DNA from: Cyclobacteriaceae bacterium
GTDB taxonomy: Bacteria > Bacteroidota > Bacteroidia > Cytophagales > Cyclobacteriaceae
DNA: 64,000 bases
Direction of reading: 5' to 3'
Assembly: GCA_020832305.1 (NCBI GenBank)
Contig: JAFIEV010000089.1
Span: 434,001-498,000 of the forward strand
Position numbers and translations under genes: made by a program. This document shows, piece by piece, positions 21,180-64,000 of this stretch (its first letter is position 1; each line of letters starts with the position of its first letter). Below the pieces are notes generated by a model that saw only the letters and a program-made list of their open reading frames with translations, made no database searches and had not been told where the DNA came from.

Positions 21180-21741
21180 AAGCTGTTTAGATTTAAAAAT
21201 TTACAAACTTCCATAGAAACAATATAAACCTGCTCTTGTTATTTAAATTCTTATATATTTGATTATAAGTAATTTGCAAAATAAAAAAACAGCAATTAAT
21301 GGAGGAGAACAGAAATATCCATCACATTAACTGGTGCAATAAAACATAAAAGGAGTAAATGAAAAATTTCCCCCCTGCTGTAAATCGCAAGTTAGAATAT
21401 AAAAACAGAATACAGAAGAGCTACTCGCAATTAATCCAAAACCTCTAAAAAGAGTAAAGCAAAAAATCAATATTCAAAAAGCAGTAAGGATATCTGCACA
21501 GTGGTACATTAAACCTGGTTGATAACTTCAATCTCAAGGTATACTTTGTTGAGTTGTTTATGTAAAATGAAGAACCAACTAAAATGTCCTCCCCCGCAAG
21601 ACAGGTTCAAATAGCCGGTTTTCATCCACGGTTACTTTTAAAATCTTTGTAACTTGCTACATTATAGATAATCCTTAAATTTCAAATTTCGATGACTGTT
21701 CGATTATTGAATCAGTATCTTTGGCAAAATTCCTGCAAAAT
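21180..21741. other. Intergenic region, divergent ABC exporter and LacI regulator
   Basis: About 560 bp of AT-rich DNA with no convincing gene. A 29-codon frame at 21359-21448 follows AGGAG but has no family resemblance. The only regulatory signal I trust is a -7 box at its right end. Confidence 0.5.
21716..21723 (+). promoter_or_regulatory. Possible -7 box for the LacI-family regulator
   Basis: TATCTTTG matches TAnnTTTG and ends 18 bp before the chosen ATG at 21742. The -33 region is weak. Confidence 0.4.
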
Positions 21742-22773
21742 ATGAAGCAACGCACATCAATAAATTTAAAAGAGTTAGCTTCTCAACTTAATCTATCAGT
21801 TACTACAGTTTCGAGGGTATTAAATGGCAAAGCAAAACAATATCGCATCAAGGCCGAAACTGAGCAAAGAGTACGCGAAGCTGCGAACATCTTTCATTAT
21901 TCCCCCAATCAGTTTGCGCGCAGCCTAAAGCTTGATAAAAGCGAAACAATTGGTGTGATCGTTCCGGATATTTCAAATCCGTTTTTTTCTGAGATCGTTA
22001 AAAACATTGAACGTGAAAGTAAAAACAGAGGTTATGCGGTGTTTATTGGTGACAGCAGCGACAATACCACCCAGGAAATTGCTTTGATCAATTATTTTAC
22101 CAGTCGTAAAGTAGACGGACTGATCATCGCACCTGTTGGGCTGTCATCGTCTCATCTTAATAACATTTATGAGTCAGGAATGCCTGTTGTAATTATTGAC
22201 CGCTCTTTTAATGATGTGGATTTTCCGGTTGTAACTTCCAATAATTATCAAGGCGCATTTGATGCCACCTTCGAACTCCTCAAAAACGGACATACGAAAA
22301 TAGCCTTAATTCAAGGGCTGCAAAATAGTCAACCCAACACAGACAGGGTTATGGGATATGTTGATGCCATGAAACAATGGAACATTCCGCATGATAAACT
22401 AATAATTGTTGGAAACAGCTTTTCTATCGAAAACGGATTCATTCAAGCGACAAAACTCCTGCAAGCAGCTGACCCTCCTACAGCTATTTTTGCTTTAAGT
22501 AATTTAATTACCTTGGGTGTTTTAAAGGCAGTATCTGATCTTGGTCTTGTATGCCCTGAAAATGTTTCATTGGTTTCATTCGACGAACAAGCATATTCAG
22601 CATTCTTAAACACCCCTATGACAACAATTGAGCAAAACAGAGAGGAAATCGGGTTGCGGGCTGTCAACTATGTATTGGATCAAATTAATGGCCTAAGACT
22701 TAAAAAAGGCTTGTTTTTGAAGATAGATACCAAAATACATCTTCGTAAATCAATAAAAAACCTAAATATATGA
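21742..22773 (+). CDS. LacI-family transcriptional regulator
   Basis: A 343-residue regulator. The LacI helix-turn-helix is LKELASQLNLSVTTVSRVLN (about 9-28), followed by the hinge YSPNQFARSLK. A periplasmic-binding-protein-like effector domain runs from TIGVIVPDISNPFFSEIVKN (about 62-81) to the end. The open frame continues seven codons upstream to a TTG; the ATG at 21742 is the usual family start. A perfect CAAACGTTTG operator lies just downstream in the promoter of the next operon, so it very likely represses the three sugar-related genes that follow. Confidence 0.93.
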   Translation: MKQRTSINLKELASQLNLSVTTVSRVLNGKAKQYRIKAETEQRVREAANIFHYSPNQFARSLKLDKSETIGVIVPDISNPFFSEIVKNIERESKNRGYAVFIGDSSDNTTQEIALINYFTSRKVDGLIIAPVGLSSSHLNNIYESGMPVVIIDRSFNDVDFPVVTSNNYQGAFDATFELLKNGHTKIALIQGLQNSQPNTDRVMGYVDAMKQWNIPHDKLIIVGNSFSIENGFIQATKLLQAADPPTAIFALSNLITLGVLKAVSDLGLVCPENVSLVSFDEQAYSAFLNTPMTTIEQNREEIGLRAVNYVLDQINGLRLKKGLFLKIDTKIHLRKSIKNLNI

Positions 22774-22800: not shown

Positions 22801-22815
22801 CACAAACGTTTGCGC
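22800..22815. promoter_or_regulatory. LacI-family operator GCACAAACGTTTGCGC
   Basis: The core CAAACGTTTG is a perfect 10-bp dyad with a central CG, as in most LacI-family operators, and the outer bases are palindromic except one position. It starts on the last base of the -7 box, so it covers the expected transcription start and bound repressor would block initiation. I saw no second copy of the full 10-bp core in the window. Confidence 0.75.
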
Positions 22816-22951: not shown

Positions 22952-25042
22952 ATGAATATTTTAAGAAACCTGGTCAGCTTACTTTTAGTAAGTATTTGCT
23001 TCCATGCAACATATTCACAAAACAGGGGTAGTTGTCAATTGCCCGCTTACGAGGGCGACCCGTTTGCTAATACCTATGTTATACCCACACCACAAGATCC
23101 TGCAAAATGGGATCAATGGAGAGATAAACTTTTTGAATGGCGAGAGAAAGCGATGATGGCTTCAAATCACAGTGATTCACTTTACAATTTGCCGGAATTC
23201 GAATTTGTAAAGTCATCTTTTGTATCAACAAAAATAATACTATGGGATGAGGAATTTTTTGATTGGAAAGCAGGTAAATATACACCTGAGAAGTTTATTG
23301 AAGAGGGTAAAAGAAGATTCGGTGGTTATGATAATGTGCTGCTTTGGCACTCGTATATCAGATTGGGCTTTGATGAGCGAAACCAGTTTGATTTTTACAG
23401 GGATATGCCCGGAGGCCTGGAAGAGCTTAAACGATTGGTTAAAATTTTTCATGACAATGGCATTAATGTCACTATTAATTACAATCCATGGGATATTGGA
23501 ACAAAACGTGAAGATAAAAACGATTTCGACGCATTAATTGAAGTACTAAAAACCATCAATGCAGATGGTGTTTACCTCGATACATGGCATAATGGACCAG
23601 ATGAATTTTTTGTACAAATGAACAAAGAGGTGAGACCAGGAATGATCTATGAAACGGAAAACAATCAATGTATAGCGAATTTGAAAAACCACCATTTTGA
23701 ATGGCTCGAAGAGTACTATACAGATAGTTATGTTCCAGGCATAATAAGAAACAAATGGTTTGAGCGTAAACATATGATGCATATTGATCTTAGAAATCAA
23801 AAAGATAAGATTCCATTTTTACACCTGGCATGGATGAATGGAACGGGAATTCTTGTATGGGAAAATGTTTTTAGCCAATGGATGGGATGGAGTAAACAAG
23901 AAGAACAGATTCTAAAAAGCATGGTGCCTGTACAACGCAGATATGTAGATGTTTTTACAGGTGAAGGATGGGAACCGTTTATTCCTACATTGGAAGATGG
24001 TGTATTTGCCAATAAATGGTATACTGATGCTTTGCAGATATGGACGGTTGTAAATAGAAACAGCGTAAAGGTTGAAGCCTCAATACTGGAGATTAAACAA
24101 CAAAAAGGTCAAAATATCCATTATTTTGATTTGATAAGCGGAAAAAAATTAGAAGTAGTCAAACTAACGACTGAAACGATACGAGATGAAAGAGGTCTCG
24201 AAAAAACATCGGAAAATGACAACATTGAACAGATCACTTTAAAATGTTCACTTATGCCAAGAGGAATTGCTGCCGTTATAGCAATCGATGAAAAAGATAT
24301 AGATAATGATTTTAGATATTTTCTTTTTCAACAAAGCATTATTGCATTGAACAATCATAATTACTATAACTCAGAGAAAAAAGAGCCTTTGGAAGCATTG
24401 AATTTCCCTGCTCCTACACCTAAGTACGCAATGAATAAATTGCCTTCAGGGATGATACTTATGCCGCATGGTAAACATCCAGTCATTATCGAAAAAGTTG
24501 ATAGACCAATTTTTTATTTATACCTAGATACACCGATGGAGCGAATTACAGACTTTACTCTATTTGCTATAGATACGAAGCCTGTAACAAACCTTGAATA
24601 TTATCAATTTCTTCAAAGCAGTGGGTATGAGCCCGAATTCAAAGAAAATTTCCTGGTCCATTGGAATGGAGCCCGGCCGCCTAAAAGCATTGAAAATGAA
24701 CCGGTTGTATATGTGGATTTAAATGATGCCCGCGCGTATGCATCATGGATGAAAAAACGTCTCCCGACTGAAGAGGAATGGGTCCTGGCTATGAATACTA
24801 AAAAGCCGGATTATCATAATAAAAGGGTTTGGGAATGGAATGAAAGTGAACGCAGCAATGGGCAAAGTCGATGGTGTACATTACATGGGGGTTCATTTTA
24901 TAATGCAACAGGATCTATACATTATGCAGATGGAGGCCCCATGGAACCAAAAATGGGATCAAAATATATGCTCATGTGGCCGGGTCTTGATCGGTGCTCG
25001 ACCATCGGATTCAGATGCGTTGTAGATGTATTAAATAAGTAA
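22952..25042 (+). CDS. Exported TIM-barrel-like protein fused to a sulfatase-modifying-factor (SUMF1) domain
   Basis: A 696-residue exported protein with a signal peptide ending near residue 22 (LVSICFHATYSQ). Residues about 70-400 look like a glycoside-hydrolase TIM barrel: VLLWHSYIRLGFDERNQ, NGINVTINYNPWDIG, then NADGVYLDTWHNGPDEF, whose Asp sits where clan-D hydrolases keep a nucleophile, and MIYETENNQ. A beta-rich segment follows. The C-terminal region (about 535-695) is an FGE/SUMF1 fold: DTKPVTNLEYYQFLQSSGY, KKRLPTEEEWVLAM, LHGGSFYN and GFRCVVDV. SUMF1-like domains may modify sulfatases or simply bind ligands; no sulfatase is in the window. The hydrolase assignment is by pattern only. 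Confidence 0.65.
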   Translation: MNILRNLVSLLLVSICFHATYSQNRGSCQLPAYEGDPFANTYVIPTPQDPAKWDQWRDKLFEWREKAMMASNHSDSLYNLPEFEFVKSSFVSTKIILWDEEFFDWKAGKYTPEKFIEEGKRRFGGYDNVLLWHSYIRLGFDERNQFDFYRDMPGGLEELKRLVKIFHDNGINVTINYNPWDIGTKREDKNDFDALIEVLKTINADGVYLDTWHNGPDEFFVQMNKEVRPGMIYETENNQCIANLKNHHFEWLEEYYTDSYVPGIIRNKWFERKHMMHIDLRNQKDKIPFLHLAWMNGTGILVWENVFSQWMGWSKQEEQILKSMVPVQRRYVDVFTGEGWEPFIPTLEDGVFANKWYTDALQIWTVVNRNSVKVEASILEIKQQKGQNIHYFDLISGKKLEVVKLTTETIRDERGLEKTSENDNIEQITLKCSLMPRGIAAVIAIDEKDIDNDFRYFLFQQSIIALNNHNYYNSEKKEPLEALNFPAPTPKYAMNKLPSGMILMPHGKHPVIIEKVDRPIFYLYLDTPMERITDFTLFAIDTKPVTNLEYYQFLQSSGYEPEFKENFLVHWNGARPPKSIENEPVVYVDLNDARAYASWMKKRLPTEEEWVLAMNTKKPDYHNKRVWEWNESERSNGQSRWCTLHGGSFYNATGSIHYADGGPMEPKMGSKYMLMWPGLDRCSTIGFRCVVDVLNK

Positions 25043-25063: not shown

Positions 25064-27088
25064 ATGACTTCAAAAAGTAAAACTATAGGTTTTTTTATTT
25101 TTCTTTTCCTCACTTCGACATATGCAAATTGTCAGAAAAAAGAGATCTCTTTTGAAACCTATCAGCAAAAAGTATATGATTCCTGGATCGGTCAAATAGT
25201 AGGCAATGTTATAGGAATGAACTATGAATGTGTATACAATGAAGAACCTTTTACAGGAGAATTCAAATTTGAATATGCTGGCTGGCCATTGGATATGACC
25301 CTTAAGCACAGAGGTGCATACGTCAACGATGACACTTTTGTGGAATATATGTACTTGCTGACCATGCAGAAATATGGTGCAGAACCAACCTACCAACAAT
25401 TGGCTGAAGGTTGGATTGAACGTATGAGAATAGGCATTTGGTTAGCAAATCGTTCTGCGAGAGGCAATAGCATGAATGGAATATATCCTCCGGTTTCCGG
25501 AAGTAAAAACCACAATCCGTTTTGGTCTGAAATTGATGCTCAGTTGATCAATGAAATATTTGCTGTTACAGCTCCGGGTATGATACAATATGCCATTGAG
25601 AAAACTGACTGGGCCTCGCAAATAATGGTCGATGATTGGGGAAAAGAACCTGCAATTTTTTATGGTGCCATGTATGCTGCGGCATTTTTTGAAAGTGATT
25701 ACTTGAAATTACTGGCTATTGGCGAAAATGCTTTACCCCTTGGCAGTAGATTTAGAAATACCATAAATGAAATTAAAAAAATATATGCCGAGTTTCCCGA
25801 TCCTGATGATTGGCAAAAAGCACGGGCTAAAATGGCAGAAATGTATTATTTTAATGAGCCGGTTTTAACGCGGTCTATTTTTAATGCAAATTTAAATGGT
25901 GCTTGTGCTGTTTTAGCCATGTTGTATGGTAAAGGAGATATTGCTGAAACACTAAAGTACACTTGTATCCTGGGCTTTGATGCAGACAATCAGGCGGCAA
26001 CGGTAACAGGTCTTTATGCGCTTGCCCAAGGTTTAGATGGAATTCCACGCAACCTTGTTTATCCGATAAAGGGAGCAAAAATGCCGTTCAATGACAGGTA
26101 TGTCAACATCTCAAGAGATTGGGGTCAAGCCGAGGACACATTGTTGTTGAATGATATCTCACTTACTGAAATGGCAGAAGGTATGGCTTCGTTAGGCAGA
26201 GAAGTTGTCTTAAAAAATGGCGGAAAAATAATCAGGAAAAATAACAAAGAATACCTTCAAATCAATACAAATGCTTCATTCACGCCCCCTTTGGAACTAC
26301 CCTCCTATCAACTGCCTTATCTGTTAAAGGGCGATTCAATCAATCATAATATTGTTATTACAACAAAAAATAAACCTATTCGCTGGAAAATTTCTGGTAC
26401 AATTCCCAAAGGCCTTGTCTTCAGGGATGGAAAACTGATAGGAAAGCCTGTGGAATCGGGGATTTTCAATTTTACCTTAGAAGCTAAGCACAAAAAAGAA
26501 AGAGGAGTGTGCAACTACCAATTGATTGTGAATGAAAAAAACCTGGCCTTTACAGCAAATGAAGTGATCACCAATGTTGAGCAGGATTCATCCATTTATG
26601 CTAAAGTACAATTGCAGATGTCAAAAGAATACCACGCATATGACATTAATTCGATACGAGATGGAATTCATCGTGGAGAAAAATCAACTTACTTATCTCT
26701 TTCCTCTGACACAACTAAAAAAGTGCATTTTTTTGGATATATATGGGACGATATTCAGCAAATAGGGACATTGCAGTTTATGTCAGGTGGGTTAGAACAC
26801 ATGGGCGGTTGGTTCAATGACATAGCCGTTGAACATTTAGATGAAAAAGGAAATTGGATCCGGGTTAATAACCTTACCATTAGACCATCAATATCCGGCA
26901 AAAACACTCAATTGGACAAGGGTCATTTTATAACCTATTTGCTCACTTTTGATCCGATATCTTCTAAAGGAGTCCGGATTATTGGAAACGCCGGAGGTAC
27001 AGGTTTTTCCAAAAAATATAATTTTTATTTTTCGCCCTTTGTTTCTATAGCCGAATTGTGTGTTGATCAGCAGTTAAACAAAAAATGA
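25064..27088 (+). CDS. Exported ADP-ribosylglycohydrolase-fold protein with an Ig-like domain
   Basis: A 674-residue protein with a signal sequence ending in a Cys near residue 23 (FLFLTSTYANCQKK), so it is exported and may be a lipoprotein. Residues about 35-370 follow the ADP-ribosylglycohydrolase fold: IGQIVGNVIGMNYE, the metal motif VNDDTFVEYMYL and the C-terminal metal loop GFDADNQAATVTGLYALAQG. About 405-480 is a putative Ig-like domain (PIRWKISGTIPKGLVFRDGK). A beta-rich C-terminal domain ends it. Because ADP-ribosyl proteins are cytoplasmic, an exported member more likely acts on a sugar substrate. It is 21 bp after the previous gene and in the same operon. Confidence 0.75.
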   Translation: MTSKSKTIGFFIFLFLTSTYANCQKKEISFETYQQKVYDSWIGQIVGNVIGMNYECVYNEEPFTGEFKFEYAGWPLDMTLKHRGAYVNDDTFVEYMYLLTMQKYGAEPTYQQLAEGWIERMRIGIWLANRSARGNSMNGIYPPVSGSKNHNPFWSEIDAQLINEIFAVTAPGMIQYAIEKTDWASQIMVDDWGKEPAIFYGAMYAAAFFESDYLKLLAIGENALPLGSRFRNTINEIKKIYAEFPDPDDWQKARAKMAEMYYFNEPVLTRSIFNANLNGACAVLAMLYGKGDIAETLKYTCILGFDADNQAATVTGLYALAQGLDGIPRNLVYPIKGAKMPFNDRYVNISRDWGQAEDTLLLNDISLTEMAEGMASLGREVVLKNGGKIIRKNNKEYLQINTNASFTPPLELPSYQLPYLLKGDSINHNIVITTKNKPIRWKISGTIPKGLVFRDGKLIGKPVESGIFNFTLEAKHKKERGVCNYQLIVNEKNLAFTANEVITNVEQDSSIYAKVQLQMSKEYHAYDINSIRDGIHRGEKSTYLSLSSDTTKKVHFFGYIWDDIQQIGTLQFMSGGLEHMGGWFNDIAVEHLDEKGNWIRVNNLTIRPSISGKNTQLDKGHFITYLLTFDPISSKGVRIIGNAGGTGFSKKYNFYFSPFVSIAELCVDQQLNKK

Positions 27089-27493: not shown

Positions 27494-28756
27494 ATGAATA
27501 ATATTATAAAGCTGGAATTTCTAAAGACCTGCCTGCTGATAACAACCATATTACTCAGCGCGTACAATACTCAGGCTCAACACAATGTTCTCACAGAAAA
27601 AGAGATGAAAGAAGGCTGGCGTCTTCTTTTCGATGGCCAAACGCTTAATGGTTGGCGAAGCTTCAAGGAAGAAGGTGTAAGCGGCTGGAAGGTTGACAAT
27701 GGCACCCTGATGGCCTTAGGAGTGGGTAGTGATCCGGATGGAGATATTATTACTGAAGAAACATTTGAAAGTTTCGAACTTGTACTGGATTGGAAAATTT
27801 CACCCGGCGGTAACAGTGGAATATTTTTCCATGTGGTCGAAAACGATCAATTTAATACCATATATGAGACTGGGCCGGAATACCAATTGTTCGATGATTT
27901 AAGTCGAGGCAAAGGTTCTCTCGGTATGAATGGAGTTTCAGGTAATTATGGTATGCATGCTCCAAAAAACCCTCCTCTTAAAAAAGCCGGTGAATGGAAT
28001 ACTACACGTATTGTAGTCAACCAGGGTGCCGTTGAACATTGGCTCAATGGAAAAAAAGTTCTAAGTTATCAGCTAGGTTCAAATGAATGGAATCATTTGG
28101 TGCAAAATGGGAAATGGAAAGACTATCCTGCATATGGAGTAGCAGGCCGAGGACACATCGCTTTACAAGACCACGGATATAAAATATGGTTTAGGAATGT
28201 CAAGCTAAAGCCATTGGCTGTTACTTCCCTTTTCAACGGCAAGGATCTGAGCGGATGGAAGATTCATGGAACAGAGAAGTGGTATGTACAAAATGGAGAA
28301 TTGGTTTGCGAAAGCGGGCCAGATAAAGCCTATGGTTACCTGGCTAGCGTTAATGACTTCAAAAACTTTGAACTTAATATTGAATTTCTGCAGGAATCTG
28401 ATGGCAACAGTGGCATTTTCTTCAGATCTAACCTGGATGGTACAAAAATAAGTGGTTGGCAGGTAGAAGTAGCACCCCCGGGCAAAGATACTGGTGGTAT
28501 TTATGAATCCTATGGTAGGGGTTGGCTGCAAAAAATACCTGATGAAAAAGAAGATGTATTGCAAATGGGAAAATGGAACCACATGAAAATCATTGTAAAA
28601 GATGACCATGTGCAGTCCTTTTTAAATGGTGTAAAAATGGCCGACCTCAAAGACACAAAAATCGGGGAGGCAAATGGAAAAATTGCCTTGCAAATTCACG
28701 ATGGTGGCGGTATCAAAGTAAGATGGAGAAATATAAAAATAAATGAATTGAAATAA
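27494..28756 (+). CDS. Exported protein with two DUF1080 (3-keto-glycoside-active) domains
   Basis: A 420-residue exported protein with a signal peptide ending near residue 28 (LLSAYNTQAQH). Two tandem DUF1080 domains follow: about 35-235 (WRLLFDGQTLNGWRSF, GNSGIFFHV) and about 238-418 (TSLFNGKDLSGWKIHG, DGNSGIFFRS, NHMKIIVKDDH). Members of this family act on 3-keto sugars in glycan breakdown, and the concanavalin-like jelly roll is expected. It is the last gene of the sugar locus, but 405 bp separate it from the preceding gene, so it may have its own promoter. A hairpin lies just past its stop. Confidence 0.85.
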   Translation: MNNIIKLEFLKTCLLITTILLSAYNTQAQHNVLTEKEMKEGWRLLFDGQTLNGWRSFKEEGVSGWKVDNGTLMALGVGSDPDGDIITEETFESFELVLDWKISPGGNSGIFFHVVENDQFNTIYETGPEYQLFDDLSRGKGSLGMNGVSGNYGMHAPKNPPLKKAGEWNTTRIVVNQGAVEHWLNGKKVLSYQLGSNEWNHLVQNGKWKDYPAYGVAGRGHIALQDHGYKIWFRNVKLKPLAVTSLFNGKDLSGWKIHGTEKWYVQNGELVCESGPDKAYGYLASVNDFKNFELNIEFLQESDGNSGIFFRSNLDGTKISGWQVEVAPPGKDTGGIYESYGRGWLQKIPDEKEDVLQMGKWNHMKIIVKDDHVQSFLNGVKMADLKDTKIGEANGKIALQIHDGGGIKVRWRNIKINELK

Positions 28757-43002: not shown

Positions 43003-46000
43003 TTAATATAAATCCTTCATAACCACAACCTTTTTCACGAGCACTATACCATCTGCATCGAAGAGTAGAAGGTTATGGACTCCTTCTGAAAGGTCACCGG
43101 TTTGGAAAATATGCATATCTGAACCTTTTGGCAACTTACCTTTTGCAATGGCCACGCCACGCATATCCACAATTTGCCAATCCATATCTTTGTGAAGTGT
43201 CCTTCCAAGGTCAAGTTTAAAATAGTCTCTTGCAGGGTTGGGATATAATCTGGCCTCACTGAAAGATTCATTCAATAGTATGTCTGGCAATGAGGTGACC
43301 CTGTCAGGATACTTTATTGGCAAATCAATCATTGCAGCCTGATAAATCTCTGATTTTGATTCATTGGTAACCCTTTGCACAAAAACCGCCATAGCAAGGG
43401 TTGTTGAATCATAAATGGTTCTTCCGTTGAGGTCCCAGGTTTCTTCAAAAGTCACCTGATCTCCACGCTGCCAGGTTCTGGAGAAAATTGTTCCTCCCGG
43501 ATCAGGCAGCATATCTTTCACCACATTTCTCAAAACACCAGCCTGAAGGAAGAATTCTGTAACATTTTTCTCTACAGGTACTACATGAACTACAATCTGA
43601 TTTGAAAGACTGTCTCTGGCCGTCAAACCTATTCTAACTGTTGCAAGGTTACTGGCACTCTCCTCCACAAGAGATAAATCAATATCAAAAAGTGGTGAAA
43701 CCAGCGACCTGTTAAGCACATCCCTTTGCGTGATAGGTACAGGCTGAAAATCAAAATTTCTGATTCCATCCATCACCGTTCTTGGAGCCTGAGTCAGGTT
43801 GTAAACACTACCCCTTGTGTTTGATGGGTTCGGATTCTTTTCAAAGATTACATCAGGCCTGGGTGAGCTGATATGATATTGCAAGGATATTGCGTCAAGT
43901 GGACGCGCCTGCAATACATTATTAACTACCTGATTAGCATTATTACTACTGAGGCTCAATAGGTTGGTAAAGTGCTCTACGAGTACTATGCGCTCTCTTT
44001 CTCCAATCTGAAAAGCATCAAAGGCAAAGCCATTAAAATCAGACTCTGGTGGATTGGTGGCATCACTGCCAAACGCAATTCTAAACCGAACTGCTGATTG
44101 GTCGCCAATTTCATCTAATGGAAATCTTGCGATTCTCCAACCTTCCTGTACACCACTCCAGCCATTAGACCCTTCATTAAAATCACCACCTGGTCTGCCA
44201 ATAAGTCCCTTTTCTGTATACCAGTTTAAACCAATTGCATCATCAACATTGCCCAGACTTCTCCATATTAGTCCGCCATCCAGGCTATACTGAACGACTG
44301 CACCATCAAAACCAACCTGCGTGTGCGTCCAGATGGCCATGCTCATCATGGGCCGGTTCAAAGGTGTCAGGTCAAAAGACGGTGTATTGATAAAAGATTG
44401 TTCCATCGGATTATATTCTCCACTTAAATTGGTAACCCATGCATTGTTTCCGTTAAAAGGACTGTTAATAACTGAGCCCGACGGAAATCCAAGTTCCCAT
44501 GAAGAATTGGTTCCTTCAACAACCCAACCTGATTCACTTTCAAAATCCTGAAAATATGGATAGCTGGTAATAGAAGGTATAATAAATACCGGCTTGGTAA
44601 TTTCTCCGCGGCATCCAAAATTACTGACAACTCTCAGCCTTACATCAAATCTTCCACTGTCGAGAAATTGATGGTTAACTACCGTGAAACCTGATGCAAT
44701 TCCTGATAAAACTGTTCCATCTCCAAAGTTCCATTCCAGTGATGCTACATTACTTGGCGGTCCTGATTCAAAACGTGTTCGGTCTTCAAAACGGGTATTA
44801 TCTCCAAAAGCAATAGCCTGAAATGTAAAATCAGTTACCGGAACAGCTCCAACTGCGATTATGGAATCTCTAAAGCTTGCACATCCATATCTGGTGGTAA
44901 CTTCAAGACGCACATTATAGGTACTGGCCGCCTGGTATAAATGCATTGGGTCTTGCTGTGTATTAACAACAGAGTTGTCACCAAAATCCCATCTCCATGA
45001 CACTACATCGTCATCAGCAAAAGCTGTTTGTAAAGGTTTGGTAGCATCTCTGAACTGAACCGGATCACTAACACAATTACTCAGGACATTAAAATGTACC
45101 CTGGGTGTGGCATCGACCCTAACAATTTCACTCACAGTAAGAACTACCCCGTTGGGATCGGTGTAGGTATAAAAGATTTCATGATTATTTGCCCCAGCTG
45201 TAGACGGGCTGAAGAAGTAATCATCTCCAAGTCTATATACCCCGGTACCGGTAAATAAACCACCAGTAGGAATTGCCTGTAGTATTATATCACTGTTTCC
45301 GGTGCACAGATCCTCCGGAACAATAATTTCAACATCTGGCAATGGGAATACAAAAGTAGATCGTCCTCTGGAATTGGTGCAACCATTGGCGTCTGTAAAG
45401 GTATATACAATTACGTGTGGTCCCTCTCCGGCAATAGAAGGATTAAATGTGTTGCCAACAACCCCCGGACCTGAGAAAATTCCACCTTCTGGGGCACCAT
45501 CAAGGTTTACCGCTCCATCGTCTTCCTGGTAGTTTGGATTGAGACCAAAGAAATTAACTGTGGGTAAAGAATTTACCTGAACAATAGTTGATTGTACATC
45601 GGCAGGACAAGGACCTTCAGGGTCGTCTGTTCTGAATATCAGGGAAACATTTGTTCCTGCTTCAATAGGACTGGGGGTATAAATAGTATTTATACTGTTT
45701 GGATCAGAAAATGTACCTGAACCACCCTGCCAAAAACCGGTAGTTGCGGAACCACCTATGGTTCCTGAAAGATTAACTTCACCATCAATACAAATCGGAT
45801 CATAATTGCCTGGTATAGCAATGGCCCTTGAATTGATTTGAATGCTTAAATTATCAAATACTGCCGGACAAGGCCCTTCTGGGTCATTGGTAGTTAAAGT
45901 CAGCATTACCATTCCGGCAGATTTATCGTTGGTACCTGGTGTGTAAGAAGCGTTTAAATCACCGGCAAAGCTGAAAACTCCATCTCCTGATGTTGACCAG

Positions 46001-49000
46001 CTTGCCGAAGTAGCAGATTGACCAATAACACCACTCAGGGTAGCTGGAGTGGTTTCACAAATGATCTGATCCATGCCAGCATCGACAAAAGCTGCACGGT
46101 TTATTCTTATTACCATTTCATCACTCACAGCCGGACAAGTAGAATTATCACTGGCAATCATTTGCAAAACAGCTATGCCAATTTCATCTTCTCCCGGCAA
46201 ATAAGATGGTGTAAGGGAATTGGGGTTAACTATGCTTCCCGAACCACTGATAAGGTTCCAGTTGGCTACAGAAGCGCCGCCACCTAAGCTTGCTTCAGTA
46301 ATTTCGACAGTAGTTGTGCCCTGGCAAACGACGATATCCGGACCTGCATTGGCAATATTAGGTGCATCAACGGTCTGAACCACATCAATAGACTGGCCAA
46401 CACATGATAAAGCTGTAGGTGTTATTCTGTAAGTAATACCCAGAGGGCCTGATGTATTGTTAAATAAAAGCTGACTTATGTTATTTCCAACACCACTGGC
46501 ACCTACAGTTGTACCCGTAATGCCTGCGTCAATTGCAACGACCTCCCAGCCAAAGTTTGTAAAGGGCACAAGATTTTGGTTCACAATTTGAACCTGAGTT
46601 AAGGTACCACTGCATATATCCGGTGCCGATGCTGTAACCACAGGAATTGGATTAACCCTTACCCGTACATTGCGAAGCTCTGAATTTACACATGTTAAGG
46701 CAGAAACCCGGAAATTGTATTGCACTTCAATAGACTCGTTCGTCGGATTGATTAACAAGTCCTCAATTTTATCGCCTGGGTTAAAGGTAGTATTGTTGCT
46801 AAGGGTACCATTTACTGCACCATAGATTACTGAGCTTAAGGTAATGATGGCATTATCGGTTTCACTAAATACATCTATATCCGTTAGTCCATTCGAACAC
46901 AAAGTCGGCATATTATTGCTCACTGTAATATCGGGAATTGGATTTACAATTACCTCAGCTAATACATTCTCAGTATTAAGACATCCGTTGAGAGAGGCAG
47001 AAAAAACATAGGTAACCGTTTGGGGGCTCAAGGTAGGGTTAGATAAAACCTCAGTTATCCTGTTACCACTTATAAAGGTTTCTCCACCGTTGAATGTTCC
47101 AGTAATTTCACCATATGAAACAGAGTTTAACGATATAATAGTGCCAGCTACTGGTGAATTTAGTGAAATATCAACGCCCGTCTGTTCGCATATTTCCGGC
47201 CTGTTGTTGCCAACTGTAAAAACTGGCTGTGGATTTACCGTTACTTGTGTTGATTTTGGAACAGGCAAAGCACATCCCGGTGTGCTAACCTGAAAATTGT
47301 AAGTTACCACTACCGGATTATTGGTAGTATTCTGAAGGACTTCCGTAACTGAACCTGAACTTCCGAATGATGTGCCCGGGGTCAGGCTACCTGCCACTGG
47401 TCCGTAATTTACAGAACTCAAAGTAATTTCAGCCCCAAAAACATCACTGAACAGATCAATATCTACAGCCTCTCCGGAACAAATTAACGGGCTGTTGTTT
47501 ACGACGTTGAAATCGGGAGTTGGATTCACTACAACCTCCGTAAAATCATCTACCGGACCGCATATACTTGCATTTACCCTGAAAGTATACCTGACTGTGA
47601 TGGGATTTTCAGTTCCATTAACTATGTTTTCACGTATCACGCTACCGGGAAGGAAAGCCTGGTTAGGTAATAATGTACCTGTACCACCTCCATAATCAAC
47701 ATTAACCAATGTAAAAATAGCACCTTCAGTACTACTGACCAGCTCAATATTGGTAAGCGTTCCTTCACATATATCCGGAGTACTGTTGATGAAGGCAATT
47801 TCCGGATTTGGTCTGACCAGCACCTGAGCAGTTGCAGGATTGTTATTAACACATCCAGAGGCAACAGCCGTAAAACTATATGTAACACTTAAAGGGGCAT
47901 TGGTCGTATTGATCAGACTTTCATTTATTACCTGATTATTTAAATATTCCACCGGTGGCACCAGGGTACCTTGCACAGCACCATAATTAACAGAATTTAA
48001 AATAACCCTCGCATTGGCGGTGGGACTATTTAAACGAATATTGGCATTATTTCCGGAACATATATCCGGCTCAAAATTACTTACTGTAAATGTAGGATTT
48101 GGTTTGACTAATACAGAAGCCGTCAGATCAAGATCATAAGGACAACCGTTTGATACCATACTGAAAACATACGTTACCGTAACAGGGTTATTTGTGAGGT
48201 TTCGAACTGATTCTGTAATACTTGCACCGCTGCTATAAGATATACCAGCACTCAGGCTGCCTGTGGCCGCTCCATAATCCACACTTTTTAAGGTGATAAC
48301 AGCGCCGGTAACAGGACTTGACAAATTAATTTGTACAGTTTCGTCACTGCAGATCTCATCTTTTAAATTAGTTACGGTAAAAAATCCTCCCGGATTTACT
48401 ACTACCTGAGCAGTCCTTATTACAGGTATAGGACATACCGGTGATGGGATAGTAAAAGTGTAAGTAACAGTTACAGGGTCATTTGTAGGATTACTTAGTG
48501 TTTCTTCAATGAATGATCCGTCAATGAAGGTAGCGCCTGGAACTAGTGCTCCTCCATTTACAGATCCATAATCCACATCTTCTAAGATTATATCAAATCC
48601 AACATTCGGTGTTGACAACAGAACCCTGGTATCTTCTCCTGAGCAAATTACCGGCCGTTGATTAATTACATTTAAAGTGGGTGCAGGAAACAAGGTAACC
48701 TGAGTAGTTTGTGTTACCGGATTTACACATCCGTTGGCAGATACACCAAAAGTATACTGGATGCTTGCCGCTTCAAATCCCGGGTTATCAAGGATTTCAG
48801 TTATTCTGTTGCCGCTTACAAAAACCTGACCCGGAGATAAAGTGCCATTGGCAGTGCCATAATCAACATCCAGCAATGTAATTAAGCCACCAGTAGTCGG
48901 GCTGGTTAATCCGATGTCCACAGGAAAACCTTCACAAATTTCTGGTGTTAGATTGTTAATGCTAAATACAGGTTGCGGATTAACAGTTATGGTCGCCGTT

Positions 49001-52000
49001 CTGGTAACAGGATTAACGCAGCCTGTTGCTGAAACCCTGAACTCATAAACCAATTGCTGAGGCACATTGGAAGTATTTTGAATTGCGTTATTAATTTTGA
49101 AAGGAAAACTGTCAAAAACAGTTCCAGCCACCATTTGACCTGTGATATCAGGACCTGCTGTAACGTTTACAATTTCTACTTCTGCTCCGGCAGTATTGGA
49201 ATTTAAATCAATATCCAAATTGCTGCCTGAACAAATAACTGGCGCATTGTTGGTTAAAACGAACTGAGGTGCAGGGTTAACAGTTACGGTTACTTCAACT
49301 GGTAAACCTTGACAACCACCGGCAATAGGTTGAATACTGTAAACAACAGACCCTGGATTATTAGGATTGGTATTGGTGAGCAACTGGCTGATGCGATTTC
49401 CATTGCCTGCTGATGCGCCATTTACGTTTGTCGAAGCTACTACCGTCCAGTTATAGGTTGTGCCAGGAACCGCATTCGGATTGCTTATCGGTATATCGGT
49501 AGTCTGGCCACTGCAAATGGTAGCATCAGCCGCCAGCGCATTGGGCACAGGCGTCACGGTAACAATCACTTCTCGCGGTGTACTGGTGCATCCGGCCGGA
49601 CTCACCCCCAAAATATTAAAAGTAGCAGTGCCACTAACATTTTCCTGAATCAGACTCAGACTTTGTGAAATTGGTCCGGCCACTGGTGTCACCTGGTTAG
49701 ATGCTCCGGCAACGCCTTCAGCGCTCACCGACCATGTATATAAGGTCCCTGCAATATTGTTAGGATTGCTTAGATTAAGTGTTGTATTCGAGCCACTGCA
49801 AATTGTTTGCTGTACAGGTACCACTGTGATTGTTGGTCTTGGGTTTACCGTAACTTGAATTGTTTGAGTGGTGCCTACACAACCATTGGCGGAAATGCTG
49901 AATTCATACTCAACAATCACGGGACTATTACCTGTATTTGTTATAAGCTCATTAATTTTAGATCCTGGGGTAAATGTTGCACCCGGCACAAGGCTTCCAG
50001 AACCAGTTCCATAATTTACTGATAAAAGTGTTATGACAGAGCCGGCAAACGGAGAAGCAATATCTATATTTACATTTTCCCCTGTACAGATAATGGGTGA
50101 ATTATTGTTAAGTGTAAATGTTGGCTGTGGATTAACCGTAATGTTGGCCGTTTGGGTCATCGGGTTTACACAGGTACCGGTTCTTACCTGAAATTCATAT
50201 TGTAAAATAAGAGGTGCATTTGTAGAATTAATTATACTGTTACCCAAAACCACAGGAAAGGTATTATAAGTAGCACCCGGGCTAAGCTGACCGCTTATGC
50301 CTGTCGCGGCCGATACTGAAATCAGTTCAACAATCGCTCCTGTGGTTTCAGAGTTAAGATTTATTTGTGTCTCATCACCCGAACAAATGGCCGTTGCGTT
50401 GTTTGTCAGAGTAAATACAGGAACTGGCGCCACAGTAATGCCGACATCTGTTGTTGGGCCGACACATCCATTAGCACTGCGTGGGCTGATTCTGTAAATA
50501 ATGGTTTGAGCAGTATTGCCGATATTTGATAATGTCTGGGCTATGGTAGCGCCACTGCCTGACCCTGCACCTGTTATGCCTCCGGGATTTGAAAAAACCT
50601 CCCATGTATAGGTTGCGCCTACCCCATTCGGATTGGTAATGGCAACATTACTGGTTGCACCACTGCATATCTCCTGGGCCGTTGCAGCTGCATCAGGAAG
50701 GGGATTTACTGTTACTTCCACAATAACCGGGGTGCCTGAACATGTTCCGGCAGACGGAGTAATGGTATAAATGGCAGTTCCCGCAGTTGCAGCTGTTGTA
50801 CTTAAAGTCTGAACTATTGAGGTACCACTTCCATTTGCCGAACCAGCAACACCGCTTTGCGTGACCGTCCAGTTAAAAACTGTACCAGCAACGTTATTAG
50901 GATTACTAAGGTTGATCCCGGTTTCGGTACCTGAACAAATAATCTGTGCGGCTGGCTGGGCCAATACAGTTGGAGTTGGATTAACGGAAATAACTACATC
51001 TGCAGTTGGGCCATTGCATCCCGATGCACTCCTGGGGGTAATACGGTAAGTAATTTCCTGCACTGCGTTGGTCGGATTCACCAGTTGCTGGGCAATCGTT
51101 GAACCACTGCCTGATCCTGCACCTGTTATTCCTCCCGGATTTGAAAAAACCTCCCATGTATAGGTTGCACCTACCCCATTCGGATTGGTAATGACAACAT
51201 TGCTGGTTGCACCACTGCATATCTCCTGGGCCGTTGCAGCTGCATCAGGAAGAGGATTTACTGCTACTTCCACATTAACCGGCGTGCCTGAACATGTTCC
51301 GGCAGACGGAGTAATGGTGTATAAAGCAGTTCCTGCAGCTGCAGCTGTCGTGCTTAAGGTCTGAACTATTGAGACACCACTTCCATTTGCCGCACCAGCA
51401 ACACCACTTTGCGTGACCGTCCAGTTAAAAACTGTACCAGCAACGTTATTAGGATTACTAAGGTTGATCCCGGTTTCAGTACTTGAACAAATAATCTGAG
51501 CGGCTGGCTGAGCCAATACATTTGGCGTTGGATTAACTGTTACTGCCACGGTTACAGGTACTCCAGAGCAACTATTGGCAGCTGGCGTAATACTATATTC
51601 AACAATTCCACCTGTTGTAGAACTAAGAGTCTGATTAATGCTGGCCCCCGAGCCGGCACTATGTCCGTTAACACTTCCAGAAATCAAATTACTTGTCCAT
51701 GTAAATGATGTGCCAGTAATGCCATTTGCCACGCTGATCTCTAAATTAGTGGTCTCCCCGCTACAAATCTCTGTATCCCCGCTAACAGTGGCTTCAGGTA
51801 TTGGATTTACAGTAATTACTGCATCCTCTGCTGCGCCGATACAACCATCAGCTGTCGCTCGTATACGATATCTTACGACACCACCTGTGGTGGAACTGAG
51901 CGTCTGTTCAATACTGTTTCCTGTTCCATTGGCGAGGCCTGTCACGGCACCGTTAATCACAGTAGCTGTCCAGTTAAAAACCACGGGAGACAGGCCATTT

Positions 52001-53679
52001 GGTTCGGAAAGAACAATACTGGTAGTTTCGTTACTACATAATTCGTCTACGGCAGGTATTGCTTCAACCAGTGGTAGTGGTTTTACAATTACATCATACT
52101 CCAGGGGTAATCCTGTACAAGAGCCGGCTGAAGGAGTAATGGTATAACGTACCTCAGCACCGGCAGCATCTGTATTTAAAACCTGAGAAATTACATTGCC
52201 TGTAAATGGTCCCTCTGATGAGCCACTCACATTACCATTTAAAGTAGTTCTGGACCAATTAAAGCTAGTACCAACTATAGTGCTATTCAGTGTCAGTTCT
52301 AATATAGCGCCACTGCAGACCTCATCGTCTCCCGCAACCGAAGCAATGGGTGAATCACTTACGGTTATGGTAGCAGAACCTGAAAGCCCTGTTCCAGCAC
52401 AACCTTTACTATCCGAAACCGAGTTAAGCGTATAGGTAGTAGTTGTAGTGGGTGAAACAACGATATCCGAACCACTTACATAATCATTAATTACACCAAG
52501 GTTTTCAATATCGAGTGTAAAAGGTCCTGTACCACCGGTAATATTTACCCGTATGGCAGTATTATCTCCCTCACAAATCACCTCATTTCCAATGATATTC
52601 GAAGCGGTGGATGGTAAATTTACAGTTATTACTGCACTACCGGTGAGGGAGGTAGCATTACAGTCATTGGCATCAGTCACACTTACGAGAGTGTATGTAG
52701 TATTTAACGCTGGAGAAACGGCTACGATATGTCCGTCTGAAATGCCGGTAAGATCAAAATTTGTACTTCCATTGGTGTAGGTCACATTAAATGGGCCGGT
52801 TCCTGAAAGTCCAAAGGTTAAGTTGGCCGATTCACCGGAACAAACCTCTGCTGTCCCGGAAATACTTCCGGTGGGCAATGGATTTATGCTTAATGTTGCT
52901 ATATCTGAAGTGATTATACATCCGCCTGCTCCACTCACCTGGCATCTGTATTGTGCCCCATCAAGTCCATTTACATTGCTTATACTGAGCTCATTGGTGG
53001 TTTCGCCAGTATAGGGCGCGCCTGAGACCGGTATCCAGTCTGATCCGTCCCATCTTTGCCAGACATACATTAAAACTGAGCCGGTTGCCTGTATTATAAA
53101 GGAGACAGTACCATCACTACAGGCAGTTTCATCCTGAGGCTGGGTAGTAATAGACGGTTCATCAAAACTCTGAAGATTTCTCAATGCGGTACCATCAGGT
53201 AATCCATTAACGACAGCTGTCCCTCCCTGCCTGATTATGGCGCCTGATGAGGCGGTATTAATTGCCTGAACCTGTAAACCCGAAACATTCAATACATCCA
53301 GTTCAACCTCATCGGTAACATCAAATTCAATTGACAGGTTTTGTTCATTTGTGTAACTAAAAGAAAAATTCCCTACTTCTGATCCAGGTCCCGAATTACT
53401 GATGACCGGTGTAGCAGAGATATCAAATTCAAAACCAGCAGGTAGTTGAAAAATAAGGGTTAGTCCTGTGCCAGATTCAAAATCATCAGGACTGGTTTCA
53501 GTAATTGCAATATCTGGTATCAATTGAAAGTCACCATCCACGCAAAACTCTGATGCAGGTGTTATTGGGGAGACAGAAACCTGTCCAATGGATTGAAAAG
53601 AACAAATCATTAAACCAAGCATCATTATAATGCCTGGAAATCGCATGAGTCGTATTTTATTAAGTAAATCTATGTTCAT
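43003..53679 (-). CDS. Giant T9SS-secreted cysteine-rich PKD/Ig repeat surface protein
   Basis: A 3558-residue exported protein. A signal sequence ends near residue 33 (MICSFQSIGQVSV). A beta-rich head (about 35-180) and an Ig-like domain (about 180-272) are followed by about 23 repeats of 90-98 residues (about 272-2447), each with a Cys near the start (for example EICSG), a second Cys toward the end and a VTVNPxP junction. Two types occur: one with a TxxW core (PKD-like) and one with an ITLxSVxYG...LxPGxxF core. Three more degenerate repeats, two short units and two classical PKD domains (WRWDFGDNS near 2893) come next. A lamin-G/MAM-like region follows, and a T9SS sorting domain (LYPNPARDYFKLDL, near 3480) ends it. 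A surface adhesin or scaffold is likely. Ligand unknown. Confidence 0.88.
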   Translation of the reverse strand: MNIDLLNKIRLMRFPGIIMMLGLMICSFQSIGQVSVSPITPASEFCVDGDFQLIPDIAITETSPDDFESGTGLTLIFQLPAGFEFDISATPVISNSGPGSEVGNFSFSYTNEQNLSIEFDVTDEVELDVLNVSGLQVQAINTASSGAIIRQGGTAVVNGLPDGTALRNLQSFDEPSITTQPQDETACSDGTVSFIIQATGSVLMYVWQRWDGSDWIPVSGAPYTGETTNELSISNVNGLDGAQYRCQVSGAGGCIITSDIATLSINPLPTGSISGTAEVCSGESANLTFGLSGTGPFNVTYTNGSTNFDLTGISDGHIVAVSPALNTTYTLVSVTDANDCNATSLTGSAVITVNLPSTASNIIGNEVICEGDNTAIRVNITGGTGPFTLDIENLGVINDYVSGSDIVVSPTTTTTYTLNSVSDSKGCAGTGLSGSATITVSDSPIASVAGDDEVCSGAILELTLNSTIVGTSFNWSRTTLNGNVSGSSEGPFTGNVISQVLNTDAAGAEVRYTITPSAGSCTGLPLEYDVIVKPLPLVEAIPAVDELCSNETTSIVLSEPNGLSPVVFNWTATVINGAVTGLANGTGNSIEQTLSSTTGGVVRYRIRATADGCIGAAEDAVITVNPIPEATVSGDTEICSGETTNLEISVANGITGTSFTWTSNLISGSVNGHSAGSGASINQTLSSTTGGIVEYSITPAANSCSGVPVTVAVTVNPTPNVLAQPAAQIICSSTETGINLSNPNNVAGTVFNWTVTQSGVAGAANGSGVSIVQTLSTTAAAAGTALYTITPSAGTCSGTPVNVEVAVNPLPDAAATAQEICSGATSNVVITNPNGVGATYTWEVFSNPGGITGAGSGSGSTIAQQLVNPTNAVQEITYRITPRSASGCNGPTADVVISVNPTPTVLAQPAAQIICSGTETGINLSNPNNVAGTVFNWTVTQSGVAGSANGSGTSIVQTLSTTAATAGTAIYTITPSAGTCSGTPVIVEVTVNPLPDAAATAQEICSGATSNVAITNPNGVGATYTWEVFSNPGGITGAGSGSGATIAQTLSNIGNTAQTIIYRISPRSANGCVGPTTDVGITVAPVPVFTLTNNATAICSGDETQINLNSETTGAIVELISVSAATGISGQLSPGATYNTFPVVLGNSIINSTNAPLILQYEFQVRTGTCVNPMTQTANITVNPQPTFTLNNNSPIICTGENVNIDIASPFAGSVITLLSVNYGTGSGSLVPGATFTPGSKINELITNTGNSPVIVEYEFSISANGCVGTTQTIQVTVNPRPTITVVPVQQTICSGSNTTLNLSNPNNIAGTLYTWSVSAEGVAGASNQVTPVAGPISQSLSLIQENVSGTATFNILGVSPAGCTSTPREVIVTVTPVPNALAADATICSGQTTDIPISNPNAVPGTTYNWTVVASTNVNGASAGNGNRISQLLTNTNPNNPGSVVYSIQPIAGGCQGLPVEVTVTVNPAPQFVLTNNAPVICSGSNLDIDLNSNTAGAEVEIVNVTAGPDITGQMVAGTVFDSFPFKINNAIQNTSNVPQQLVYEFRVSATGCVNPVTRTATITVNPQPVFSINNLTPEICEGFPVDIGLTSPTTGGLITLLDVDYGTANGTLSPGQVFVSGNRITEILDNPGFEAASIQYTFGVSANGCVNPVTQTTQVTLFPAPTLNVINQRPVICSGEDTRVLLSTPNVGFDIILEDVDYGSVNGGALVPGATFIDGSFIEETLSNPTNDPVTVTYTFTIPSPVCPIPVIRTAQVVVNPGGFFTVTNLKDEICSDETVQINLSSPVTGAVITLKSVDYGAATGSLSAGISYSSGASITESVRNLTNNPVTVTYVFSMVSNGCPYDLDLTASVLVKPNPTFTVSNFEPDICSGNNANIRLNSPTANARVILNSVNYGAVQGTLVPPVEYLNNQVINESLINTTNAPLSVTYSFTAVASGCVNNNPATAQVLVRPNPEIAFINSTPDICEGTLTNIELVSSTEGAIFTLVNVDYGGGTGTLLPNQAFLPGSVIRENIVNGTENPITVRYTFRVNASICGPVDDFTEVVVNPTPDFNVVNNSPLICSGEAVDIDLFSDVFGAEITLSSVNYGPVAGSLTPGTSFGSSGSVTEVLQNTTNNPVVVTYNFQVSTPGCALPVPKSTQVTVNPQPVFTVGNNRPEICEQTGVDISLNSPVAGTIISLNSVSYGEITGTFNGGETFISGNRITEVLSNPTLSPQTVTYVFSASLNGCLNTENVLAEVIVNPIPDITVSNNMPTLCSNGLTDIDVFSETDNAIITLSSVIYGAVNGTLSNNTTFNPGDKIEDLLINPTNESIEVQYNFRVSALTCVNSELRNVRVRVNPIPVVTASAPDICSGTLTQVQIVNQNLVPFTNFGWEVVAIDAGITGTTVGASGVGNNISQLLFNNTSGPLGITYRITPTALSCVGQSIDVVQTVDAPNIANAGPDIVVCQGTTTVEITEASLGGGASVANWNLISGSGSIVNPNSLTPSYLPGEDEIGIAVLQMIASDNSTCPAVSDEMVIRINRAAFVDAGMDQIICETTPATLSGVIGQSATSASWSTSGDGVFSFAGDLNASYTPGTNDKSAGMVMLTLTTNDPEGPCPAVFDNLSIQINSRAIAIPGNYDPICIDGEVNLSGTIGGSATTGFWQGGSGTFSDPNSINTIYTPSPIEAGTNVSLIFRTDDPEGPCPADVQSTIVQVNSLPTVNFFGLNPNYQEDDGAVNLDGAPEGGIFSGPGVVGNTFNPSIAGEGPHVIVYTFTDANGCTNSRGRSTFVFPLPDVEIIVPEDLCTGNSDIILQAIPTGGLFTGTGVYRLGDDYFFSPSTAGANNHEIFYTYTDPNGVVLTVSEIVRVDATPRVHFNVLSNCVSDPVQFRDATKPLQTAFADDDVVSWRWDFGDNSVVNTQQDPMHLYQAASTYNVRLEVTTRYGCASFRDSIIAVGAVPVTDFTFQAIAFGDNTRFEDRTRFESGPPSNVASLEWNFGDGTVLSGIASGFTVVNHQFLDSGRFDVRLRVVSNFGCRGEITKPVFIIPSITSYPYFQDFESESGWVVEGTNSSWELGFPSGSVINSPFNGNNAWVTNLSGEYNPMEQSFINTPSFDLTPLNRPMMSMAIWTHTQVGFDGAVVQYSLDGGLIWRSLGNVDDAIGLNWYTEKGLIGRPGGDFNEGSNGWSGVQEGWRIARFPLDEIGDQSAVRFRIAFGSDATNPPESDFNGFAFDAFQIGERERIVLVEHFTNLLSLSSNNANQVVNNVLQARPLDAISLQYHISSPRPDVIFEKNPNPSNTRGSVYNLTQAPRTVMDGIRNFDFQPVPITQRDVLNRSLVSPLFDIDLSLVEESASNLATVRIGLTARDSLSNQIVVHVVPVEKNVTEFFLQAGVLRNVVKDMLPDPGGTIFSRTWQRGDQVTFEETWDLNGRTIYDSTTLAMAVFVQRVTNESKSEIYQAAMIDLPIKYPDRVTSLPDILLNESFSEARLYPNPARDYFKLDLGRTLHKDMDWQIVDMRGVAIAKGKLPKGSDMHIFQTGDLSEGVHNLLLFDADGIVLVKKVVVMKDLY
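50419..51522 (-). repeat. 552-bp tandem duplication inside the giant surface-protein gene
   Basis: Two adjacent units, 50971-51522 and 50419-50970, each encode two repeats (184 residues, 92 + 92) and differ by only scattered bases. The first half begins VLAQPAAQIIC and the second DAAATAQEIC in both. The period is exactly 184 codons, so the frame is kept. This is a recent in-frame duplication or a site of gene conversion. Confidence 0.9.
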
Positions 53680-63900: not shown

Positions 63901-64000
63901 ATTAACCAGATGGGAAAATTTTAGCCTTCTTTGAAGCCATGCAAATGCGCCTGTTGATATAACGCCCGCCAAGCCTGAAGCAAACATTGCTTCAGTTAGG
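60976..64000 (-). CDS. Nucleotide-translocase-like / HEAT / cyclic-nucleotide-binding-like fusion, 5' end cut
   Basis: The gene runs past the right edge; at least 1007 residues are seen (the frame is open to 64000 with no in-frame stop). The N-terminal half has about ten hydrophobic helices (up to about residue 375) resembling the ATP/ADP translocase Tlc/NTT family, for example FFSMLAYSFLMFSFQKVTSL. A charged coil (about 370-400) leads to HEAT-like repeats (about 480-750). The C-terminal domain (about 890-985) resembles a cyclic-nucleotide-binding beta-roll (FLWIYQGYACIVDENEE, GDLIGEQLN). The usual Arg of the phosphate-binding cassette is absent, so it may not bind cNMP. It lies 177 bp upstream of the TIR gene. 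Confidence 0.8.
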   Translation of the reverse strand, partial: LTEAMFASGLAGVISTGAFAWLQRRLKFSHLVNINIVLVFSFIVMLRLMIEYTQNDWLIFLLYIMFKPIFAICMLSFWGIFGRIFDLRQSKRIIGGIDAGQLIATILGLFSVPFLQNYFKSQLSLLSIGEIGLVFALITLVVINKQVHLGSYHIGRGQEVPKETRLFNVFKSRYIVLLSSFLFFSMLAYSFLMFSFQKVTSLQYADEAKLMTFLSMTHGSILFVSLIMQTFVNEKLISMYGLRTCLKLLPVVLSIFIGLSLVAGFSFGYTPESPDFIYFFLFITLSYLLGSILRDALENPVFKIFFMPLDPRFRFDIQTRVEGMVNEIARLVSGTLIFIFGLITIFRLIDYTIVLYFILIPYFALIFTIYKYYRDSIKKRLEEQKHEFEEQQQHHDLSQIKKQALQINNSENLHHLIFLLKVLARYSPEQFRLLVDTIRSQRKNLYGHMALSCLEDDVTFVHLTGSLYGREPLEKSHESKEDHNLKSYLKSAKPEDRRFLAEMIGLGMDEESSVFLNELLSDSDPQVIKSAIAATGNCEKMDLLPVIIDFLHQEDFMGYAADALVNFGEKCFPSLESVFYGREDNYKIKLKIIGIYGRIGGKKAIDLLWDKIDYPDFNVGFKVIQELSRCGMVASESQRSKFKTFIEDDIQVYLYNLMAIQLLMLQETDSFRMLIQALREENQQKVYHVFTLLEIVFDRESILLAKENIEKGTGEGLNNALELLDIILSEDLQHKVIYFLDDISDEQKIDKLIQYYPIEKEESIAAILVHIINRDLNKSNRYTRACAINCTAHIDNEEYYFDDILMANLFNPDSFIFEVSWKTAAQINADINNIFCQRNHIRDVDKLFEEKFITTRQHYLVIYPRFELIDFFKEKTLLSRLYGYFLANLVESVEVKTIEKDQTTLLGRFPKNQFLWIYQGYACIVDENEEIVEDFGQGDLIGEQLNAYNLTGTYTVKISANTIFLAIDHIKFYELITDDLNILLKVSSALGLYKRPEALSDGKLIEV

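Follow-up and report, generated by a model that had tools for sequence, protein, structure and literature searches.

The target gene (22952–25042, plus strand) lies in a window of 64,000 nt, by which we mean the whole stretch of Cyclobacteriaceae DNA analyzed here, and encodes a protein of 696 aa that begins with ATG. Four parts could be distinguished in the product. A hydrophobic stretch at residues 1–23 (22952–23020) was judged by eye to resemble a signal peptide and forms a helix (residues 2–22) in the AlphaFold2 model; it is followed by a glycoside hydrolase (GH)-type (beta/alpha)8 barrel (residues about 76–335; 23177–23956), delimited from the model and from structure matches, by a C-terminal beta-sandwich seen in the model behind the barrel (residues about 340–448; 23969–24295), and by an SUMF1, or FGE-fold, domain (residues about 498–693; 24443–25030), recognized by PF03781 as well as in the model. 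The only match to the target in its own 6.5 Mb genome is the target itself.

The gene is preceded by a LacI-family regulator (21721–22773, plus strand; called by both Pfam and NCBIfam), which is likely to control it, and followed 21 bases past its stop codon by a probable partner, an ADP_ribosyl_GH (PF03747) gene (25064–27088, plus strand; 674 aa) with a signal-like N-terminus, giving the order LacI, target, ADP_ribosyl_GH. A palindrome of LacI-operator type, CAAACGTTTG (22803–22812, plus strand), is located 139 bases before the start codon, and is a weak candidate in that such palindromes occur at chance level when up to one mismatch is allowed. A gene with a 3keto-disac_hyd match (PF06439) and a weaker match of Laminin_G_3 type (27494–28756, plus strand) starts 405 bases after the ADP_ribosyl_GH gene and may or may not form one unit with it and the target.

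Elsewhere in the window, a giant protein of 3558 aa (43003–53679, minus strand) contains nine PKD_5 stretches and a CHU_C-associated Ig-like match, with an outer-membrane barrel gene (55046–56134) nearby. A 1040-aa nSTAND1 NTPase with WD40 repeats (56183–59305, minus strand) adjoins genes at 59302–60798 (no family) and 60976–63987 (weak HEAT match), a region in which PADLOC yielded no more than a marginal match to mad3, 20 residues long.

Sequence, predicted fold and putative active site of the barrel

PF03781 (FGE-sulfatase/SUMF1) covers target residues 522–637 (E 7e-20; 72.2 bits against a cut-off of 23.3), in agreement with the C-terminal SUMF1 fold proposed in the earlier note. No other Pfam family matched the target at E≤1, leaving the first ~490 residues without a match, and NCBIfam returned far sub-threshold matches only, all of them in the SUMF1 region. 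We extended the search to 24 diverse barrels of the family, scanned against Pfam, NCBIfam and PDB sequences. In Pfam, searched at E≤10, a setting at which the HMMER filters drop most matches above ~0.1, GHL6 was matched by three barrels (best E 0.097) and Melibiase_C, which models a C-terminal rather than a catalytic domain, by one (E 0.064), alongside four other weak single matches. The catalytic Pfam models of GH36, GH129 and GH66 (Melibiase and GH129 included) matched none of the 24 barrels, and PF00128 (GH13) matched neither the target at E≤1 nor any of the 24 at E≤10. NCBIfam contributed one weak match. The search of PDB sequences matched a designed protein over two short stretches (E 0.00036) and gave two further matches with E above 1. 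The barrel forms a sequence family that neither Pfam, NCBIfam nor the PDB sequences cover. The earlier note could name no GH family for it and had suggested a new one; as searches of Pfam-A, NCBIfam and PDB sequences linked the barrel to no established GH family with confidence, this suggestion stands against these collections as a proposal. Neither the GH–SUMF1 fusion nor the barrel family was described among the matches listed from titles and abstract starts of mainly open-access literature.

An hhalign comparison of the barrel with GH13, represented by six proteins encoded in the same genome, gave E 0.0027 (for one comparison) and a probability of 11%. It set the stretch ADGVYLD210T on VDGFRLDAAKH of GH13, and E236 on the VGE glutamate. 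The score is weak and hence supports this register without proving kinship. Sequence kinship with GH66 was rejected, as hhalign aligned no more than 54 columns, which lie outside the active-site strands. A search of 296 Bacteroidota genomes for GH129 sequences to compare gave no match, but its control gave none either, so that this blank carries no weight.

The AlphaFold2 model of the target, built from 43 sequences (42 of the best 80 loci plus the window), had a mean pLDDT of 88.8 and a pTM of 0.89. It predicts eight barrel strands in order, at residues 91–96, 128–132, 172–177, 206–209, 232–236, 249–252, 275–279 and 299–302. The N-terminal half, previously described as TIM-barrel-like, is thus a (beta/alpha)8 barrel in prediction, and the sequence GVYLDTWHN, singled out before as a hydrolase-like strand, sits on strand 4. 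All 50 Foldseek PDB matches listed were alpha-amylase-type enzymes (best E 4e-13; TM by query 0.32–0.37). In VIA comparisons, target residues 55–448 were spanned by at least one fifth of the rows, and Z values were 19.3 for 1jf5 (332 aligned residues, 3.6 Å rmsd), 18.4 for 3vmn (a dextranase), 18.2 for 5opq (GH129) and 17.0 for 9ayu (a galactosaminidase); we take 1jf5 to belong to GH13, 3vmn to GH66 and 9ayu to GH36. As rows within 1 Z of each other count as tied, no single GH family is singled out. The likeness to GH13 enzymes of the neopullulanase/TVA II type (Z up to 19.3) extends to both the barrel and the C-terminal beta-sandwich, yet identity amounts to just 8–15% in the structural alignments listed; GH129 3,6-anhydro-D-galactosidase and GH36 alpha-galactosidase resemble the window form at the Z values of 18.2 and 17.0 given above. 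In the best reading of the model, the target barrel belongs with the alpha-amylase/alpha-galactosidase-like folds (GH13, 36, 66 and 129).

GH36 and GH129 enzymes consist of an N-terminal sandwich followed by the barrel. A long-form relative, L072 (939 aa; model pLDDT 88.3), carries an extra N-terminal beta domain, which the window form lacks. Foldseek alignments of L072 with GH36 and GH129 proteins (661–723 columns, rmsd 11.5–13.2 Å, query TM about 0.3, 10–12% identity) are long enough to include this domain, but the VIA rows for L072 leave it out, spanning only residues 216–592 and 686–939, mainly the barrel and SUMF1 parts.

Conservation was assessed over 89 aligned rows, comprising 73 of the best 80 loci, 13 hits from Bacteroidota genomes, two plasmid copies and the window (L078, L079 and the short pieces L080, L087, L095, L097 and L098 were left out), with identities to the window protein down to 25%. 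The putative nucleophile D210 (23579–23581), directly after strand 4, is kept in 88 rows and the putative acid/base E236 (23657–23659), at the end of strand 5, in 87; W180 and D181 (23489–23494), directly after strand 3, are each kept in 88 of the 89, as is R143. Structure prediction, put forward earlier as a check on the barrel and its catalytic acids, yields a predicted TIM barrel with conserved D210 and E236 at strands 4 and 5. GH13-like retaining enzymes carry their Asp nucleophile after strand 4 and their Glu acid/base at strand 5, an arrangement that the target matches in position only. The GH13 motif RxD further places an arginine two residues before the nucleophile, whereas arginine at position 208 is found in 0 of the 89 rows of the family. 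A third catalytic Asp follows strand 7 in GH13; the window's D279, on strand 7, varies across rows and may or may not be its structural equivalent. Two relatives deviate at the putative acids: L048 has Q in place of E236, and L084, which aligns well in the rest of this stretch, replaces both D181 and D210 with E and E236 with S, and is probably an inactivated copy. The active site of the target itself looks intact from its sequence. From position and conservation, D210 and E236 are likely to form a retaining pair, and the target would resemble GH13-like enzymes in its working, yet without the GH13 RxD arginine or a sequence match.

A SUMF1 domain without the FGE cysteine pair

PF03781 was present in 43 of 43 full-length rows, where the one other match was a marginal TOBE (E 0.071). 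The family shares this domain with the FGE-fold proteins (FGE, SUMF2, CalU17, EgtB, PvdO and TvpA), and the C-terminal domain of the long-form relative L072 gave VIA Z values of 22.9 to CalU17 and 21.5 to SUMF2 (19–23 across FGE-fold proteins). The active site of FGE is assigned to Cys336/Cys341, a C-x4-C pair (PMC4505483). An RGGS-type motif could be located in 79 of the 89 rows, and none of these has the pair; unlike in FGE, the domain is fused behind a GH-type barrel. On the target, the NCBIfam models for EgtB (42.6 bits, cut-off 360) and SenA (54.6 bits, cut-off 420) scored far below threshold. Within the domain, segment 582–646 is 65–68 residues long in the window (65), L035 and L026, and 99–104 residues in the other nine of the 12 rows listed.

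The SUMF1/FGE fold is reported to serve generally in ligand binding, with enzymatic function as a further possibility (PMC5006420). Given the missing cysteine pair and this general role of the fold, ligand binding is a reasonable function for the domain, which, with good confidence, we read as non-catalytic and distinct from FGE. Sulfatase activation was rejected as a function on account of the missing pair and of a window without a sulfatase match. The absence of a nearby sulfatase, remarked upon in the earlier note, extends well beyond the window: the 6.5 Mb genome has 102 PF00884 matches, counting fragments, and on the contig of the target the closest one ends at C13:289948, ~167 kb off. 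In spite of these 102 matches, no C-x4-C was found in the frames examined of the genome's seven other PF03781 ORFs. The barrel and SUMF1 domains are separable, since L004, L005 and L006, all from one genus, have the barrel without the SUMF1 ending.

Family spread and gene neighborhoods

A single-sequence query located the barrel in 15 of 395 Bacteroidota genomes and a profile in 11 of 296, i.e. in about 4% of two overlapping draws that each include the window's own genome. A scan of genome contigs used SUMF1 motifs as patterns and retained the best 80 of at least 513 loci; members without SUMF1 are therefore under-sampled (the three above were seen). By record title, these 80 loci, many of them metagenome bins, represent at least ten phyla, among them Bacteroidota, Verrucomicrobiota, Acidobacteriota, Pseudomonadota, Planctomycetota, Chloroflexota, Armatimonadota, Ignavibacteriota, Hydrogenedentota and Calditrichota. 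A quick tree, in which L017 forms a long branch and the letter make-up of the window is unlike that of the alignment, placed the window in a nine-row clade (support 99) together with four Verrucomicrobiota, Bacteroides stercorirosoris, an Acidobacteria bin, a Chloroflexi bin and a Spirosoma plasmid copy. This mixture of phyla is suggestive of gene transfer. Plasmids accounted for 16 records; a match over most of the protein was limited to those from Spirosoma and Sphingopyxis, both naming the relative an 'SUMF1/EgtB/PvdO family nonheme iron enzyme'; in each of five loci on viral contigs, the SUMF1 part alone was matched.

Neighboring genes were counted by tblastn in the flanks of 83 loci including the window (1.16 Mb of flank), with some matches at only 31–36% identity. 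Ribokinase-like genes flank 20 of the 83 loci (six phyla by title), GH127-like genes 18 and ADP_ribosyl_GH-like genes four, against expectations of about 0.3, 0.8 and 0.2, respectively; these expectations are rough, since densities came from 23–24 genomes picked partly for such neighbors, near relatives were counted separately, and ribokinase density was taken by HMM at E≤1e-40, the 20 loci by tblastn at E≤1e-15. GH172-like genes flank eight loci. Ribokinase was the best NCBIfam match for all eight kinases tested of the 20 found; four passed the TIGR02152 cut-off, the other four scoring 243–266 of 299.65 bits. Kinase, target and GH127 genes lie contiguous on one strand in L018, L031, L049, L053, L055, L059 and probably L061, all from Pseudomonadota, and a kinase is directly 5′ of the target also in L029, L036 and L054. 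A permease-like gene occurs in seven of the 83 loci, each of which also has the kinase, the L029 copy matching both Ureide_permease and Sugar_transport. In L040 (Terriglobia, a different phylum from that of the window), ADP_ribosyl_GH follows 58 nt after the target, succeeded by a permease-like gene and a ribokinase fragment. ADP_ribosyl_GH genes are also found within about 4 kb of a ribokinase in genomes G411 and G416 and, away from the target, on contig C47 of the window's genome (G000), as open frames of 533–658 aa. In the window's own subclade, no ribokinase-like gene was seen in the flanks of the nine rows, three of which are loci under 7 kb.

Pfam was run on 129 of the 199 listed flanking ORFs plus a few more of L035, with the first 25 families listed. 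The locus of Bacteroides stercorirosoris (L035) is of SusC/SusD type and holds three DUF2961 (GH172) genes, a GH26 gene and a GH43/32-like gene. A GH63/MGH1-like gene lies beside six loci, for which mannosylglycerate-type substrates were considered. In seven loci (L018, L031, L043, L045, L053, L055 and L059), a gene from a CoA-transferase family III cluster is conserved two or three ORFs past the target; it is annotated as such in L018, PF02515 was found in five of 72 flanking ORFs, and the cluster has no explanation in a sugar pathway.

Candidate function and competing readings

The interpretation of the target given in the earlier note is supported as essentially right, and neither outcome that the note had set against it, a confident match to a GH family or a (predicted) fold other than a TIM barrel, came up. 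We consider the target very probably a glycosidase, by its N-terminus apparently a secreted one, and, with more reserve, favor the view that it is a retaining enzyme whose SUMF1 module is non-catalytic and that it takes part in pentofuranoside catabolism. In the proposed mechanism, an alpha-type glycosidic bond would be cleaved with retention by double displacement, D210 serving as nucleophile and E236 as general acid/base. The SUMF1 domain would most likely shape or supplement substrate binding. The enzyme would work beside GH127-, GH172- and ADP-ribosylglycohydrolase-like hydrolases and ribokinase-like kinases. With furanosidase-type hydrolases and ribokinase-like kinases as neighbors, the sugar delivered would probably be a pentofuranose, and the presence of ADP_ribosyl_GH near the target as well as near ribokinase makes D-ribose the leading candidate. 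That ribose is the sugar released is drawn from gene order, constitutes the weakest step and is a tentative guess; lacking a flanking ribokinase in the window subclade, the ribose reading is carried over from other branches. Also against ribose are the arabinofuranosides tied to its neighbors, since GH127 has its name from L-arabinofuranosides rather than ribosides and GH172 enzymes act on D-arabinofuranosides, and the L035 locus with its GH172 genes. The Rus ribose-use locus holds kinases and hydrolases, whereas the window copy has no adjoining ribokinase. Rus (BT2803–2809 in Bacteroides thetaiotaomicron) is required for ribose use (PMC12596196).

A possible but doubtful alternative is an enzyme of arabinofuranoside chains, acting on L- or D-arabinose glycans together with GH127 and GH172 types, with the kinase working on a sugar other than ribose. 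The GH127-like (18 of 83) and GH172-like (8 of 83) neighbors would fit such a role, as would the L035 locus with its three GH172 genes, GH26 and GH43/32-like gene, GH172 members being exo-D-arabinofuranosidases (PMC10115798), and just half of the eight kinases score above the TIGR02152 cut-off. Yet ribokinase is the best NCBIfam match for every one of the eight, the kinase is present in all seven loci with the permease-like gene, and ADP_ribosyl_GH lies about 4 kb or less from ribokinase in G411, G416 and the window's genome. At the other end of the range, the ribose reading can be sharpened, with a low chance of being right, to a new alpha-amylase-like branch that splits O-ribosides, perhaps alpha-ribosyl links as in ADP-ribose chemistry or ribose-bearing bacterial glycans, in concert with secreted ADP-ribosylglycohydrolase-like enzymes and ribokinase and with a retired FGE domain as sugar binder.

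GH13-type barrels include many transglycosidases and phosphorylases, and GlgE, trehalose synthase and branching enzymes are among the Foldseek and VIA rows of the target. That it is a transglycosidase or phosphorylase instead of a hydrolase is nonetheless improbable, as the signal-like N-terminus speaks against cytoplasmic phosphate or sugar phosphates and several neighbors are hydrolases. We rate as very improbable that the SUMF1 domain is a second enzyme, either an oxidase or a sulfatase activator, fused to the barrel: the clear PF03781 match, the 'nonheme iron enzyme' of relatives' records and the genome's many sulfatase matches are countered by the missing cysteine pair in all 79 rows, the EgtB and SenA scores and the sulfatase-free window. 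A binding protein with a dead barrel has equally little to recommend it; losses do occur, as L048 lacks the putative acid/base and L084 both acids, but both acids are kept in 87 of the 89 rows, down to 25% identity, and both are present in the window.

Should the target be a glycosidase, the name 'nonheme iron enzyme', which two annotated records derive from the C-terminal domain, would be misleading. The order of kinase, target and GH127 genes offers a concrete substrate class for the target family. If the target is a glycosidase, a conserved pentose pathway would have been overlooked, its barrel spanning at least ten phyla yet missed by Pfam and NCBIfam.
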